Positions 30,391 through 37,226 of a stretch of 38,563 bases of DNA are shown here, in pieces. This stretch comes from Spirochaetaceae bacterium (GTDB lineage: Bacteria > Spirochaetota > Spirochaetia > Treponematales > Breznakiellaceae), in NCBI GenBank assembly GCA_031283755.1, contig JAITBE010000159.1:1-38563 (forward strand). The letters run 5' to 3'. Both the position numbers and the translations under genes were made by a program. The first letter of the stretch is position 1; each line of letters begins with the position of its first letter. A model generated the notes under the pieces. It did not search any database and was not told the DNA's origin. It worked only from the letters and a program-made list of their open reading frames with translations.

Positions 30391-31392
30391 TTATCTAAAT
30401 TTGTATTTTAGTGAAAGCCCTACGCTCAGGGCGGAATAGGCCGCCCCCGCTTTATTGTTGTCCCTGACGGTAATATTGTTGGCGAGATCTTTTATGATGG
30501 TTAACCCCCGGGGCCCCTTGATAAACCGGTAAGAAACATATGCGGAGAGATCGATTTTTTCATTCAAGGAAAAGATAAATTCTCCCGTGGGTTCAAGAAA
30601 AAGACCGCCAAACATATAATCGTTAAACTGCAGCGGCGGGCTCCTCAAAGGATGATTATCCTGATCCAAACAAAATATTAAGGGGCTTATCTGAAAATCT
30701 ATGTTGACGGCGAAAAAACGGTACGGAATATACAAAGAAATCCCGGGGGTTATTATAAACCAATTTTGGGTATAGGCGATCACCAGCCCGTATTGGGAAA
30801 CCCTTGGAATATTTTCAGTCCACGGGGAATAAACGCCGGACACAATCTCCGTCCCGTATTGGGAATAACCATCCTGGGCGGCCCACCTAAAATACATATA
30901 ATTAAAACCGGTGTAAAATTTAAACAACATCCTGGATATAACGGGCATGGAAACACCTACGTTAAGCTCTGCGAGCATGGCCCAATTGGTATAATTATCA
31001 TGGGAGGAAAAATGGGACAGCTGATCCCCCTCTGCCTGCCAATCCCGGTCTTCCATAATCCCTGTTTTAGCGGGAAATGAGAATTGGGCGGTTAAATTCG
31101 TAACAAATCCCATCTTTTCCATGGGATAACGGCGGTTTAAATCCAAAGAAACGCCCCATAAAAAGAGAGGTTTTATATCCCAACTAAGCTGGCTTAATAA
31201 AGTATCGCTGTCGGTCGTTTTATATACTAATTCTTTAACCTGCCCGTATAAAAAACCGGAAACCGGAGCAACCGAAAAGACATAGGTTGTTTCGGATTGG
31301 GGGGACCCGTTCGTTTCTCCCGCCAGGGGCAGGACAATAAAAAAAACATATAAAAGACTGGCTAATATTTTAAAAAAAGATATAATATTCAT
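30391..31392 (-). CDS. Omptin-family (OmpT/Pla-like) outer-membrane aspartyl protease homologue
   Basis: Signal peptide; amphipathic beta-barrel pattern; GQVKELVY...LLSQLSWDIKPLFLWGVSLDLN, MEDRDWQ (OmpT DQDW), YTNWAMLAELNVGV, LDQDNHP (OmpT NDEHY). Start placed at ATG 31392 (MNIISFFK); ATG 31404 is possible. Confidence 0.82.
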   Translation of the reverse strand: MNIISFFKILASLLYVFFIVLPLAGETNGSPQSETTYVFSVAPVSGFLYGQVKELVYKTTDSDTLLSQLSWDIKPLFLWGVSLDLNRRYPMEKMGFVTNLTAQFSFPAKTGIMEDRDWQAEGDQLSHFSSHDNYTNWAMLAELNVGVSMPVISRMLFKFYTGFNYMYFRWAAQDGYSQYGTEIVSGVYSPWTENIPRVSQYGLVIAYTQNWFIITPGISLYIPYRFFAVNIDFQISPLIFCLDQDNHPLRSPPLQFNDYMFGGLFLEPTGEFIFSLNEKIDLSAYVSYRFIKGPRGLTIIKDLANNITVRDNNKAGAAYSALSVGLSLKYKFR

Positions 31393-31552
31393 TAATATGA
31401 ACATATATATACCGGGTGTAGTCGGTCAAGGGAGCCGGGTACAAAATCCGGTTGGTACAGGCCTTGGATCCGGTGAAACCGGTATGGGAAAAAGCGCCAC
31501 CAAAACTATTTTTTGCCGTAAATATAAGGCGGTTATCTCAAAATCTGACATT

Positions 31553-31933
31553 TTGAGACAGCCGAGGCGCTTCATTTTTTTTATGCTCATATCCGTTATC
31601 GGCCTTGCTTCCTGCAGCCGCGGCTCCGATGATATCGCCTTTATTCCCCCCCCCACTCCGCCCCTGTCCCGGTATTTCCTGGGCTATGGGGTGGTAACCG
31701 TTTCCTATATCCAGGTGTTAAAAGAGCCGGTTCCGGGCTCGGAATCTTTAGGATACCTGAGAAGAAGTTCCCTGGTGCGGGTTCTGGAACGGAAGAAGGT
31801 AAATTACCGGGGGACCTTTGAATCCTGGGTCCTGGTGGAAGGGAATTATCGGGGATGGTTACAGGAAGATATGGTCCGGATCTACGATAACGAAGCCCAG
31901 GCCAAAACCGCCGCGGAGTCTATGCCCCAATGA
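31553..31933 (+). CDS. Small lipoprotein with SH3-like domain
   Basis: Signal peptide/lipobox MRQPRRFIFFMLISVIGLASC (TTG start) and SH3b-like VSYIQVLKEPVPGSESLGYLRRSSLVRVLERKKVNYRGTFESWVLVEGNYRGWLQEDMVRIYD; start uncertain (ATG 31583 alternative). Confidence 0.65.
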   Translation: MRQPRRFIFFMLISVIGLASCSRGSDDIAFIPPPTPPLSRYFLGYGVVTVSYIQVLKEPVPGSESLGYLRRSSLVRVLERKKVNYRGTFESWVLVEGNYRGWLQEDMVRIYDNEAQAKTAAESMPQ

Positions 31934-33330
31934 ACCCCCTATTGGGATGGCTGCTTCCCCCGCTGGTAGGCGCCTTAATAGGGTATATCACCAACGCGGT
32001 GGCAATAAAAATGCTCTTTCGTCCCCTCCGGGCGATCGTTGTTTTTGGGATCCGTCTGCCCTTTACCCCGGGGATACTGCCCAAACAGCGGCATAAACTC
32101 GCGGACAGTATAGGGGCCATGGTTGAACGGGAACTCTTTACGGTGGAAATCATAAAGGCCCGGCTCCGCCACCCCGAAGTTCGGGAGTATGTCCGGAAAT
32201 CCCTGGTTCTATATACGGAAAAAATTCTCAACATCCCCCTGGAACAAATTATCCATGTTCCGGCGGCCTTGACCGGCAAAAGCCCTTCATCCCCGGGTGA
32301 GGATATTCAGGGGTTCCTCACCAGACTTGCCCAGGGGTTTATCACATCCCCGGCTTTTGATTCGGTCATGGATAAACTCTTTTCCACCCTGGCGGATACC
32401 TATGGAAACCGTACCATCCGGGATATTTTGGGTAATTCCGGGGAATTGGAAAATATGGTGGAAAAAATAATCCGGGAGGACATAGATTTTTCAAATCCGG
32501 TTCTTGAACATGCCATTACCCGGATAGTCGAACTGGCCGGTCCGGTCTTAACCGATTCTTTGATACAATTTTTAAAAAAAGAAGATACCCACAGGGATCT
32601 GGAGACCCATGGCCGTATTTTTCTCACTAAAACCATCCTTAAATTAAACGTCTTTCAGCGCCTTTTTATTTCCGCCGGCCAGTACGACCGGACCCTCCTC
32701 GAACGGATGCCCGAAATAATTGACGATCTTATCCTGGAATTGGAACACATGATATATGATGAGAATACAAACCGGCGGATCAGGGCCTTTCTCCGGGAAA
32801 AAACCCGGACTTTTATTTTCGGCCGGGAATTTTCCGGAGAATTTGTCCAGAAAATTACCAAACTCATCCTGGCATATCTGGATCGTCCCCTGGAAGAATT
32901 GATCCGTCAGTGGACTGCTTCTGATTTTTCCGGCTTGGGACAAAAGGTTCTTTCCCTGATAAAACAGAAAGAAGGATTGGACATAAAAATAAGGGCTGCC
33001 CTGGACCATTTTTTTGAAAATCACCGGGAGACCAGCCTGGCGGCGCTTTTTTCGGTGGAAGAGGAAACTAAGAAAAAAATCGATGCCCTGGTATGCCATG
33101 AAATTCTTTCGATGATGGATAAACAGACGGAAGCTTTCCTTAACTCCATCAATGTAAAAACCCTGGTTTCTGACCGGATAAATTCCCTGGATATGATCCG
33201 GGTTGAGAGGATAGTTCTGGATGTGATGATCGATCAGCTCAAATGGATAAATTTTTTCGGCGCGGTATTAGGCGCCCTTATCGGGCTATTTCAGTCCTTT
33301 CTTTCCTGGTTCATTCGCGGCGGAGTCTGA
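31930..33330 (+). CDS. DUF445 family membrane protein (YheB-like)
   Basis: N-terminus LLGWLLPPLVGALIGYITNAVAIKMLFRPLRAI...PFTPGILPKQRHKLADSIGAMVERELFT and C-terminal TM LIGLFQSFLSWFI. Confidence 0.9.
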   Translation: MNPLLGWLLPPLVGALIGYITNAVAIKMLFRPLRAIVVFGIRLPFTPGILPKQRHKLADSIGAMVERELFTVEIIKARLRHPEVREYVRKSLVLYTEKILNIPLEQIIHVPAALTGKSPSSPGEDIQGFLTRLAQGFITSPAFDSVMDKLFSTLADTYGNRTIRDILGNSGELENMVEKIIREDIDFSNPVLEHAITRIVELAGPVLTDSLIQFLKKEDTHRDLETHGRIFLTKTILKLNVFQRLFISAGQYDRTLLERMPEIIDDLILELEHMIYDENTNRRIRAFLREKTRTFIFGREFSGEFVQKITKLILAYLDRPLEELIRQWTASDFSGLGQKVLSLIKQKEGLDIKIRAALDHFFENHRETSLAALFSVEEETKKKIDALVCHEILSMMDKQTEAFLNSINVKTLVSDRINSLDMIRVERIVLDVMIDQLKWINFFGAVLGALIGLFQSFLSWFIRGGV

Positions 33331-33411: not shown

Positions 33412-34494
33412 TTATGAGGGAAGCACAAAACGGATAAGCCCTTGAGCCAGATGCCATCGCATAAGGCTGTTTTTCGGGGGAAGTTCCATCCTGAGCCTTC
33501 CAAGGGCCCGGAGCAAGGCGCCGCCGGGGAGTTCCGCCTCCAGGATCATCCGTTCCCCCTCAAAAAATTCTTGTTTAAACCGGGCGGTAAACAGAACCGG
33601 GTTTTCCCCCTTCCCTGCGGTGAGCCCCGGGGGAAGTTCTTCCCCGGCAGGGGAAAGGGCATCCTGCGGGATAAAGACCAGGGGCTTTTGGGAATCGTAA
33701 CTTGATCCCCGGGGGACCAGGAGTTCTCCCAGGGGGGAGGTGATCTTCCAGCCATCCTGGGTTTCCCCGGTGATAGTACAGGGAAAAACCAAGCCGGCCC
33801 CAAAAAACCGGGCGCCGAATTCGGTTTTTGGGGCAAGAAACAGTTCCCGGGCCGAGCCGGTCTCCAGGATCCGGCCCCCGGACATGAGGGCGATCCGGTC
33901 CCCCAGCACCGCCGCTTCTTCCCGGTCATGGGTCACAAAAATTCGGGGAATCGGGCTTTTCGTACCGATTTCCCGGAATTCCTTTCGTAATTCCCGCCGT
34001 AAGGGGGCGTCCAGGCTGGAAAAAGGCTCATCCAGGAGCAGGGCCCTAGGTTCCGTGGCCAGGGCCCGGGCTATAGCTACCCGCTGCCGCTCTCCCCCGG
34101 ACAGGGTATGGATCCGCCGTTTTGCATACCCCGAAAGCCGGACGATTTTAAGGGCCTCCTCAACTATAGTTTTCCGTTCCCTGCGGGATACCCCCCGAAT
34201 AAAGGGACCGTAGCCAATATTATTTCCTACATTTAGGTGGGGAAAAAGCGCTAAATCTTGAAAAACTACTGAAACATACCTTTCCCAGGGGGGGAGATGA
34301 TTAAGCGGCTTCCCGTTGATGAGGATAATCCCCGCGTCTTCCTCAACGAACCCGGCGATAAGGTTGAGGACCGTGGTTTTACCGCACCCCGAAGGGCCGG
34401 CCAGGACCAAGGTTTCTCCATCGGCTACCAGAAAATCAATATCCACCGAAAAATCATTGTATTGTTTTTGTAGTCCCCGTACTTCAAGCGCCAT
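33412..34494 (-). CDS. thiQ: Thiamine ABC transporter ATP-binding protein
   Basis: Walker A GPSGCGKTT, signature LSGGERQRVAIARAL, Walker B ALLLDEPFSSLD; downstream of thiP in a TPP-riboswitch operon. Confidence 0.9.
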   Translation of the reverse strand: MALEVRGLQKQYNDFSVDIDFLVADGETLVLAGPSGCGKTTVLNLIAGFVEEDAGIILINGKPLNHLPPWERYVSVVFQDLALFPHLNVGNNIGYGPFIRGVSRRERKTIVEEALKIVRLSGYAKRRIHTLSGGERQRVAIARALATEPRALLLDEPFSSLDAPLRRELRKEFREIGTKSPIPRIFVTHDREEAAVLGDRIALMSGGRILETGSARELFLAPKTEFGARFFGAGLVFPCTITGETQDGWKITSPLGELLVPRGSSYDSQKPLVFIPQDALSPAGEELPPGLTAGKGENPVLFTARFKQEFFEGERMILEAELPGGALLRALGRLRMELPPKNSLMRWHLAQGLIRFVLPS

Positions 34495-36157
34495 AACCGT
34501 TCCTTCCGGAACCTGCTTCTGATAAAAGCAAGGCCCCGGCACAGCATAAAATCAAGAGGGTCCCCGCGGCGCAGGCCGTACCATACCGGTAGGCTCCGGC
34601 AGCCCGGTAAATTAGAAGGGGCAGGGTTTCCCATTCCTCCATTCCCAGCATGAGTACCGCGTTTAACTCCCCTAAACTTAAAACTGCGGAAAAGGCCCAG
34701 GCAGATCGGATCCGCCGGAAAAAGAGGGGGAGGGCCACGGTGAAGATCCGTTTTGCCGGTCCTCCGCCGAATACCGAAGCGGCATTCAACAGATTTTCCG
34801 GAAGTCCGTTAAAGCCCTGACTCAGGGAATTAAAGGCAAAAGGGAGGGCGGTAACCCCATGGATCAAAACTATTGCCCAGAGAGAACGGGCGTGGTCCCT
34901 GCCGTAGAGAATAAGCCAACCCAGGCTCAATACTATTCCCGAGGAACTTAGGGGGGCGGTAACGCCTATCCTGATAAGAGTTCCCAGGAAAGCGCTTCGC
35001 TCCGGAACCGGCTTTTCGGCGGTTTTGACCGCGGCGGCGGCTAAAACCGCTAAAAGGCTTGCCAGGGTTGCCGACAGAGCCGCCAGGATCAGGGAACGGC
35101 CTAGGGCGGGGAGCAAAGTACCGGTTGTTTCCAGGGATCGCCACCAATGGAGGGAAAATCCCCGGGGAGCGGCCCGGGAGGGCTTATACAAAAAGGATTC
35201 CACCGGAACCGATATCAGGGGCCCCAGGACAAAAAACGCCGTCACCAGGCCGTATAGGGTTATGCCCAAAAACGCCGGAAGGGACCGGTTTTGTTTTTCC
35301 ATAATCCGGTACCGCAGTTCTGTCCCGGCGGCCAGCCTCCGTCCCCGGCGTTCAAAAAAAAGAAAAGCTAAAAAAGCGCATCCCGCGATGAGGGTTTCCA
35401 CCAGGGCAAGGAGCCCTGCGCGGTGATAATCCAGGGATATCCTGGCATACCGGTATATCTCCACCGCCAGGGTAGTGGCTTTCGGGCCTCCCCCCAGAAC
35501 CAGAACCACGGAAAAACTGGTAAAACTGTAAAGAAAGGTGAGGAGGGAGGCCGCAGCCACAGCGGGGAGGCTCAAGGGCAGGAGGATCGTCAGGGCGGTT
35601 TTAAGTCCCGGGGCTCCCAGAGAAGCTGCCGCGGATCCATAGGTGTTTTTTGTCTGGCTCAAACCGTCTCCTACCAGACGGATCACCAGGGGGAAGTTAT
35701 AGAACCCATGGGCCAGGACGATCGCCGCCGGCCGGTAGAGGAGCCGTAAGGGCCCTTCTTCCGTACCGGCAGCGGCCATAAAAAACCGGTTTATCCAGCC
35801 TGAATTCCCAAAAAAAAGTACGAACCCCAAAACCACGAGGATCGGGGGCATGGCAAAGGGTATCCCCGTAAGGGCTCTGATAAGGCTGGTCCCCCGGAAA
35901 CGGCCGGTCCCCAAAAGCCATGCCCCGGGGAGCCCCAGGGCCAGAGCGGTGAGGGTGCTGAGTCCTGCCTGCCGGATCGTAAAGGCCAGTACCGGAAGCA
36001 GGGTTTCCCTAGGCAAAGCGGCCCCCTCCCGTGCGATCCCCCCGGCCAAAGCCGAGGCGTAGGGCAGGATAAAGGCTGCCCCCGCCGCTCCCAGGGGCAG
36101 CAGTGCAAAGGCCCAGGAAACCATAGTTTCGTATCGATGATAACCGGTTTTTCCCAT
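34484..36157 (-). CDS. thiP: Thiamine ABC transporter permease (two fused permease halves)
   Basis: 557 aa, about 12 TM with two permease modules (GSAAASLGAPGLKTALTILLPLSLPAVAAASLLTFLYSFTSFSVVLVLGGG; LLNAASVFGGGPAKRIFTVALPLFFRRIRSAWAFSAVLSLGE). Confidence 0.9.
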   Translation of the reverse strand: MGKTGYHRYETMVSWAFALLPLGAAGAAFILPYASALAGGIAREGAALPRETLLPVLAFTIRQAGLSTLTALALGLPGAWLLGTGRFRGTSLIRALTGIPFAMPPILVVLGFVLFFGNSGWINRFFMAAAGTEEGPLRLLYRPAAIVLAHGFYNFPLVIRLVGDGLSQTKNTYGSAAASLGAPGLKTALTILLPLSLPAVAAASLLTFLYSFTSFSVVLVLGGGPKATTLAVEIYRYARISLDYHRAGLLALVETLIAGCAFLAFLFFERRGRRLAAGTELRYRIMEKQNRSLPAFLGITLYGLVTAFFVLGPLISVPVESFLYKPSRAAPRGFSLHWWRSLETTGTLLPALGRSLILAALSATLASLLAVLAAAAVKTAEKPVPERSAFLGTLIRIGVTAPLSSSGIVLSLGWLILYGRDHARSLWAIVLIHGVTALPFAFNSLSQGFNGLPENLLNAASVFGGGPAKRIFTVALPLFFRRIRSAWAFSAVLSLGELNAVLMLGMEEWETLPLLIYRAAGAYRYGTACAAGTLLILCCAGALLLSEAGSGRNGYGA

Positions 36158-36170
36158 GGGAGTCCGCGGA

Positions 36171-37226
36171 TCAGCCGCCCAGGGAGGAAGATAGGGCGGT
36201 CCACTCGTCCAGTTCCCTGTCGCTTACAGGCCGGGGCCGCAGGGGTTTATCGCTTTTTGGGTTGATCCTAAAGGAGGCCGGCAGGGGGATATCTATCACC
36301 GGGTACATCCAATTGGTCAGGGGGATCACCTCCTGGAAGGCAGGGCTCAGCATAAAATCCAAAAATTGTTTGGCGTTTTCTTTGTTTTTTCCCGCCGCCA
36401 AAAGTCCTGCCAGTTCAATCTGGATAGGATGGCCGTCGGTAAAAAGGGCGGCCCGGTATTGTTCGCTGTCTTCATATTCCAGGTGATACCCGGGGCTGGT
36501 GGTATAAGACAAAACCAGGGGGGCTTCTCCGGCGGTAAAGAGGCCGTATCCGGAACTCCACCCGTCGGCTATGGTTAGGATAGAGGGACCAAGCCGCCGC
36601 CAATAATCTTTCCAGCCGTCACCGTATACCTCACTGGTCCAGTTCAAAAATCCCAGTCCCGGCGAGGAAGTCCGGGGGTCCATCAGGATCAGCTTTTTGG
36701 CGTAAATCCCCTGGGTTAAATCTTCCAGGTTCCGGGGGGGATTGGGGATACGCCGGGAGTCGTAGACAATGGCAAAATAGCTGTAATCCCAGGGAATTAA
36801 CCGGTAACTCCCGTCAATAATAAGTTCCGGTAACAGGGCCTCCGCCCCCCGGGGCTTATAGGCTTCAAAAAGCCCTGACCCCAGGGCCCGGTCCGCCATG
36901 TTTTGATCCAATCCCAGAACAATATCCGCCCCGGCGTTTTTTCCCTCCAGAAGCAGCCGGGATAAAACCTCCCCGGCATCCCCGTGAACCACCCATTTAA
37001 CGGTGATCCCCGTTTCCGCTTCAAACCGTTTGCTTATTTCCGGGCCGGGTCCCCATTCGGAATTAAAGGAATCGTAGGTCCAAATAACGACTTCCCCGGC
37101 TGCGGCCTCCCCGGCGGAAGGCTTTTGCCGGTTTCCCCCCCCGAAAACAAGGGAAGGAAAAAGCAAAAAAAACGTGAAGCCTAAAACAAGGAAAAGGTCA
37201 ATGGAAGCATGATTTTTTCCATACAT
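36171..37226 (-). CDS. thiB: Thiamine ABC transporter substrate-binding protein
   Basis: VVIWTYDSFNSEWGPGPEISKRFEAETGITVKWVVHGDAGEVLSRLLLEGKNAGADIVLGLDQNMAD matches the ThiB/TbpA pattern; immediately follows the TPP riboswitch. Confidence 0.94.
   Translation of the reverse strand: MYGKNHASIDLFLVLGFTFFLLFPSLVFGGGNRQKPSAGEAAAGEVVIWTYDSFNSEWGPGPEISKRFEAETGITVKWVVHGDAGEVLSRLLLEGKNAGADIVLGLDQNMADRALGSGLFEAYKPRGAEALLPELIIDGSYRLIPWDYSYFAIVYDSRRIPNPPRNLEDLTQGIYAKKLILMDPRTSSPGLGFLNWTSEVYGDGWKDYWRRLGPSILTIADGWSSGYGLFTAGEAPLVLSYTTSPGYHLEYEDSEQYRAALFTDGHPIQIELAGLLAAGKNKENAKQFLDFMLSPAFQEVIPLTNWMYPVIDIPLPASFRINPKSDKPLRPRPVSDRELDEWTALSSSLGG

Follow-up and report, generated by a model that had tools for sequence, protein, structure and literature searches.

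The omptin family of outer-membrane endopeptidases (PF01278, MEROPS A26), known from enterobacteria and with a preference for dibasic sites, includes E. coli OmpT (PDB 1i78) and Pla (PDB 2x55). Omptins examined to date depend on rough LPS, which they bind through Y134, E136, R138 and R171/R175 (PMC3724046, PMC7696990), and activation of OmpT by LPS is about 80-fold (PMC7617971). In Pla, Ser99 and His101 serve to position the catalytic Asp pair (PMC3724046, PMC7696990). For divergent genes with closely packed promoters, the nearest described systems are the bidirectional promoters of E. coli and Salmonella, in which divergent transcription start sites lie 7-25 bp apart, most commonly 18, and the -10 element is shared (PMC12825309, PMC10268837). 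A second example is the lysG/lysE pair of M. tuberculosis, two divergent genes separated by 108 bp, whose promoters overlap and one of whose transcripts is leaderless (PMC5648196). Among other spirochaetes, Leptospira has many leaderless mRNAs (PMC5243855).

We analyzed a 38,563-nt stretch of DNA from a Spirochaetaceae bacterium (contig JAITBE010000159.1, hereafter the window), in which an earlier sequence-only reading had proposed an omptin-like outer-membrane protease in a spirochaete-like genome. The minus-strand ORF was recovered where that reading had placed it, at 31392-30391, and encodes 333 codons plus a stop (333 aa). The Pfam Omptin profile (PF01278) matched the protein along its full length (profile positions 4-283 of 283) with E=2.3e-40 and 138.9 bits, well above the curated cut-off of 22.6. 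A single-sequence phmmer search of the PDB detected Pla at 4.7e-8, and a spirochaete-only profile built from 15 sequences without OmpT detected Pla at 5e-32 and OmpT at 1e-21. In the alignments, D115 (31050-31048) and D117 (31044-31042), within the DRDW motif (31042-31050, minus strand), corresponded to OmpT D83 and D85, and D245 (30660-30658) and H247 (30654-30652), within DNH (30652-30660, minus strand), corresponded to D210 and H212. The four catalytic residues therefore lie at the positions the sequence-only reading had assigned, and the spacing it had estimated between the two pairs was also borne out (130 residues from D115 to D245, 127 in OmpT). Ser99 and His101 of OmpT and Pla were present as S129 and H131 (31000-31008, minus strand). 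The window protein also resembled OmpT and Pla in its similar length and hydrophobic N-terminus, which we read as a signal peptide, and differed in that identity to OmpT in the alignment was only about 19%. The start at 31392 was favored over an upstream ATG at 31404 because omptins of relatives begin at the same Met (MRNIYSFK..., MKNIYVFK...). The C-terminus was indeed ...YKFR, as had been described, but it did not prove to be an unusual end: a sister protein (L009) ends in IR and the C-terminal residue varied among the omptins compared, with F in 33/88 rows. An AlphaFold2 model built from a two-sequence alignment was of low confidence (pLDDT 46, pTM 0.45) and showed ten long strands; Foldseek with this poor model returned barrels of many kinds, Pla and OmpT among them, at TM 0.12-0.28, too weak to count. 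By sequence the window gene is a genuine and catalytically complete omptin, and its product is predicted to be an active protease.

The sequence-only reading had considered an intact omptin in this setting notable in itself. The survey of relatives did not uphold this. Profile searches found PF01278 in 38/59 related genomes, covering 30/48 genera, and in 58/198 genomes sampled across the phylum, and all four catalytic residues were kept in 84/88 spirochaete rows. The window omptin is thus an ordinary new member of its family and not a rare one. The nearest named record was from Spirochaetaceae bacterium isolate Cd354_bin11 at 66% identity. Because the literature attributes the spread of omptins to horizontal transfer (PMC3724046), recent acquisition of a proteobacterial omptin was weighed as an explanation for the gene. 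The phylogeny against proteobacterial omptins, with these controls taken from plasmid records, placed all 14 proteobacterial rows in one group (support 100) and the window protein apart from them in the spirochaete clade, nested within a group formed by 66 rows from its own order (support 97). The synteny of Nudix, lipoprotein and DUF445 genes around the omptin was also retained in the nearest relative. Both results argue against recent transfer, which we regard as highly improbable, and we take the gene to belong to a lineage long resident in spirochaetes. One scan of viral contigs found no viral carriers.

Several further omptins were observed during this survey. The genome of the window itself carries a second omptin (G000:C252:527-1378, L033), which belongs to a separate clade of paralogues that lack the interlocked start described below. 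A deep spirochaete branch (L073, L074, L075, L078, L079, L081-L086, L089, L090) mostly lacked the otherwise conserved Glu27 and had Ser at the His101 position. Four genomes of this branch carried LpxC (G070, G127, G166, G201), and some of its genomes had several omptin copies (G146, G201).

The relation of these proteins to LPS was assessed using profile searches for lipid A synthesis genes, with E. coli, Caulobacter and Bacteroides as positive controls, all of which matched. LpxC and LpxK were each found in 0/59 of the related genomes, some of which are incomplete assemblies. Across the 198-genome phylum sample LpxC was present in only 5/58 omptin-carrying genomes, and the omptins of those five matched weakly. 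The host lineage therefore appears unable to make lipid A, and an omptin resident in it would have to work without LPS; activity of the window omptin without LPS is a prediction from these gene contents. Its lipid A contacts also departed from those of the LPS-activated enterobacterial omptins OmpT and Pla, with Y134/E136/R138/R175 replaced by F/Y/Y/N. The idea that loss of this motif directly reflects the loss of LPS was weakened by the rhizobial-type plasmid omptins (e.g. Mesorhizobium sp. AR07, L093), which share the catalytic set and come from LPS-bearing hosts, yet have E136 and R138 replaced in 12/12 rows. Loss of these two residues alone is consequently not an adaptation to the loss of LPS. 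The two groups did differ at OmpT position 175, where R or K was present in 10/12 rhizobial-type rows as compared to 8/88 spirochaete rows. In these alignments only loss of the basic residue at this position tracks the lipid A genes, and the groups that it separates are also separated by descent.

The dependence of the studied omptins on LPS, set against genomes with no LpxC or LpxK match, could also mean that the fold was kept for a function other than proteolysis, such as an adhesin or a structural barrel in an LPS-free membrane. Four rows with changed catalytic residues fit such a role: D83N in L015, L054 and L057, and E/I at D83/D85 in L037, which are possibly inactive or altered paralogues. 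An adhesin, however, needs none of the catalytic residues, and these were held in nearly all rows (D83 84/88, D85 87/88, S99 86/88, D210 88/88, H212 88/88) although the spirochaete omptins have otherwise diverged to 25-40% identity. We judge a non-protease role quite unlikely. With protease function as the preferred reading, a large and catalytically intact omptin branch without detectable lipid A genes offers a natural test of what LPS contributes to the enzyme.

Omptin genes of the window's family shared a block of DNA across the start codon despite the divergence of their proteins. A 19-bp pattern across the start codon matched 23 sites in a set of 60 genomes; 18 of these sites lay at omptin genes, and a reversed-pattern control matched 1. 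Comparison of the block to Rfam gave nothing above threshold, and a known RNA family was rejected. Across 44 distinct loci, 3-4 nt separated the omptin start codon from that of an SH3-like lipoprotein gene transcribed in the opposite direction, and the consensus of these loci was CTTGACc-N18-TAcTcT-CAT-N3/4-(A/G)TGARAANTATA-N18-GTCA. Read along the omptin strand, this consensus resembles a sigma-70 promoter: its two hexamers are 18 bp apart, and 7 nt separate the end of the -10 from the start codon (8 nt in loci with the 4-nt gap). The gap between TTGACN and TCAT was 23 nt in 44/44 loci, though the search had allowed a range. Because the -10 ends 7-8 nt before the start codon, the omptin mRNA is predicted to be leaderless; the gene has the geometry of leaderless genes, a -10 about 7 nt before the start and no Shine-Dalgarno sequence, as judged from sequence geometry only. 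On the lipoprotein strand, omptin codons 3-4 form a putative -10 (TATANT) and codons 10-12 a putative -35 (NTGACN), with a 17-bp spacer. This reverse promoter scored a mean of 8.9/12 against TTGACA/TATAAT in register and no more than 5.4 when slid. Each gene thus has its predicted sigma-70 promoter inside the first ~13 codons of its partner at fixed spacing.

Codon usage within the block was evaluated at positions outside the pattern by which the 44 loci had been gathered. Omptin codon 4 was ATA in 42/42 loci with Ile, as compared to a background of 30% in the rest of the same genes, and codon 11 was GTC in 42/42 with Val, over a background of 24%. As the loci are related by descent, 42/42 does not represent 42 independent events; the end branches of the protein tree, however, were mostly 0.3-1 changes per site, at which synonymous sites should have been scrambled. 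The two codons appear frozen because the opposite strand carries the predicted lipoprotein promoter there. For the reciprocal element, the lipoprotein CAA codon found in 44/44 loci was dropped as evidence since it was forced by the search pattern. We instead used 16 pairs chosen by their omptin match and not by the -35, two of which were added by eye as the lipobox pattern was too strict. The omptin -35 together with the matching lipoprotein CAA codon was kept in 15/16 of these pairs, over a CAA background of 26%. Together these data are consistent with purifying selection on synonymous sites, explained by the promoter on the other strand.

The window keeps this interlocked layout, with the lipoprotein side partly degraded. 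The predicted omptin -35, TTGACC (31424-31429, minus strand), lies inside codons 10-12 of the lipoprotein ORF and is followed after an 18-bp spacer by the -10, TATGTT (31400-31405, minus strand). This promoter was found by the consensus and independently by a promoter scan (9/12), and it places the predicted omptin transcription start at about 31393, resulting in an essentially leaderless mRNA as judged from the sequence. In the other direction, the lipoprotein ORF begins with an ATG at 31397, and 4 nt lie between it and the omptin ATG. Its candidate -10 is a perfect TATAAT (31381-31386, plus strand) inside omptin codons 3-4, and its candidate -35, inside omptin codons 10-12 with a 17-bp spacer, is CTGGCT (31358-31363, plus strand), degraded by one base from the NTGACN of the group. 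The SH3-like lipoprotein ORF (31397-31933, plus strand; weak SH3_3 match) has a stretch of about 45 extra residues before its lipobox, LASC, a feature of this genus, and because of this stretch the real start may be internal. Constraint on the lipoprotein side may have relaxed in the window's genus, or the start there may have shifted.

The same block could be read as the operator of a DNA-binding regulator, acting instead of or besides two promoters. Its center is a near-perfect palindrome, TCATNNNATGA, and the outer TGAC...GTCA arms are nearly symmetric about that center. Such symmetry would, however, also arise from a pair of opposed promoters with an ATGA start on each strand, and promoters require spacers like the 18 and 17 bp found here between TTGACA-like and TATAAT-like hexamers, as well as a distance like the 7 nt from the omptin -10 to the start codon. 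An operator is in our judgment unlikely as the explanation of the block, with an additional shared regulator still compatible with these features.

Opposed promoters, the preferred reading, make the locus comparable to the bidirectional promoters described by Grainger and co-workers. In both, two opposed sigma-70 promoters, predicted ones in the window pair, share one stretch of DNA that polymerase can bind in just one direction at any moment, and those bidirectional promoters often lie between functionally linked divergent genes, a divergent layout like that of the window pair. The omptin/lipoprotein pair differs in that separate -10 elements flank the start codons, the predicted transcription start sites fall within a few bases of each other and each promoter lies inside the coding sequence of the partner. 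From the predicted elements the pair is therefore not a bidirectional promoter of the shared -10 type. The lysG/lysE pair is similarly divergent with overlapping promoters, but those promoters are not embedded in each other's ORF. No pair in which both promoters lie within the partner's ORF came up in a search of the open-access literature.

Under the mechanism we propose, the omptin would reside in the outer membrane and cleave peptides or surface proteins by the D-D/D-H mechanism. It would be transcribed from a sigma-70 promoter within the first ~13 codons of the opposed SH3-like lipoprotein gene, and the lipoprotein from a promoter within the first ~12 codons of the omptin. Both mRNAs would be leaderless, with start codons 3-4 nt apart. 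RNA polymerase could occupy just one of the two promoters at once, and as a result the output of protease and lipoprotein would be coupled or mutually exclusive. We hold it probable that this account as a whole is correct, that is, a complete, spirochaete-resident and LPS-independent omptin with interlocked leaderless promoters and coupled or exclusive output. We are evenly divided on whether the LPS-independent omptin and the SH3-like lipoprotein form an interlocked leaderless pair in which exclusive polymerase binding provides a built-in switch or balance. The interlocked start is a compact and testable case of two putatively leaderless genes sharing regulatory and coding DNA. The locus deserves a modest second look for two reasons: its setting is probably free of LPS, and its start region is interlocked.

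The genes surrounding the pair were also compared. A lipoprotein ORF started at the opposing ATG in 44/44 loci, with the available sequence stopping before the end of the ORF in about half. Members of the lipoprotein family combine a short signal peptide and lipobox Cys with a weak SH3_3 domain, and the family extends beyond the pair, occurring in 48/59 relatives. Adjacent, divergent omptin and lipoprotein genes that lack the tight lock were seen in several genomes, one of which (G041) belongs to another family. Downstream in the window, a DUF445 membrane protein gene (31930-33330, plus strand; PF04286, 5.5e-36) overlaps the end of the lipoprotein ORF, and a DUF445 gene followed the lipoprotein in 20/25 loci with enough DNA. 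Other genes of these genomes (L130, L133, L143, L147, L150, L179 and L192) likewise have a TTGAC followed after 17-18 nt by a hexamer resembling TATAAT and, a few bases further on, an ATG, a sequence pattern which suggests that the group commonly uses leaderless promoters. Further along the window, an ABC importer operon (ATPase, permease and solute-binding protein) was observed on the minus strand at 33412-37226.
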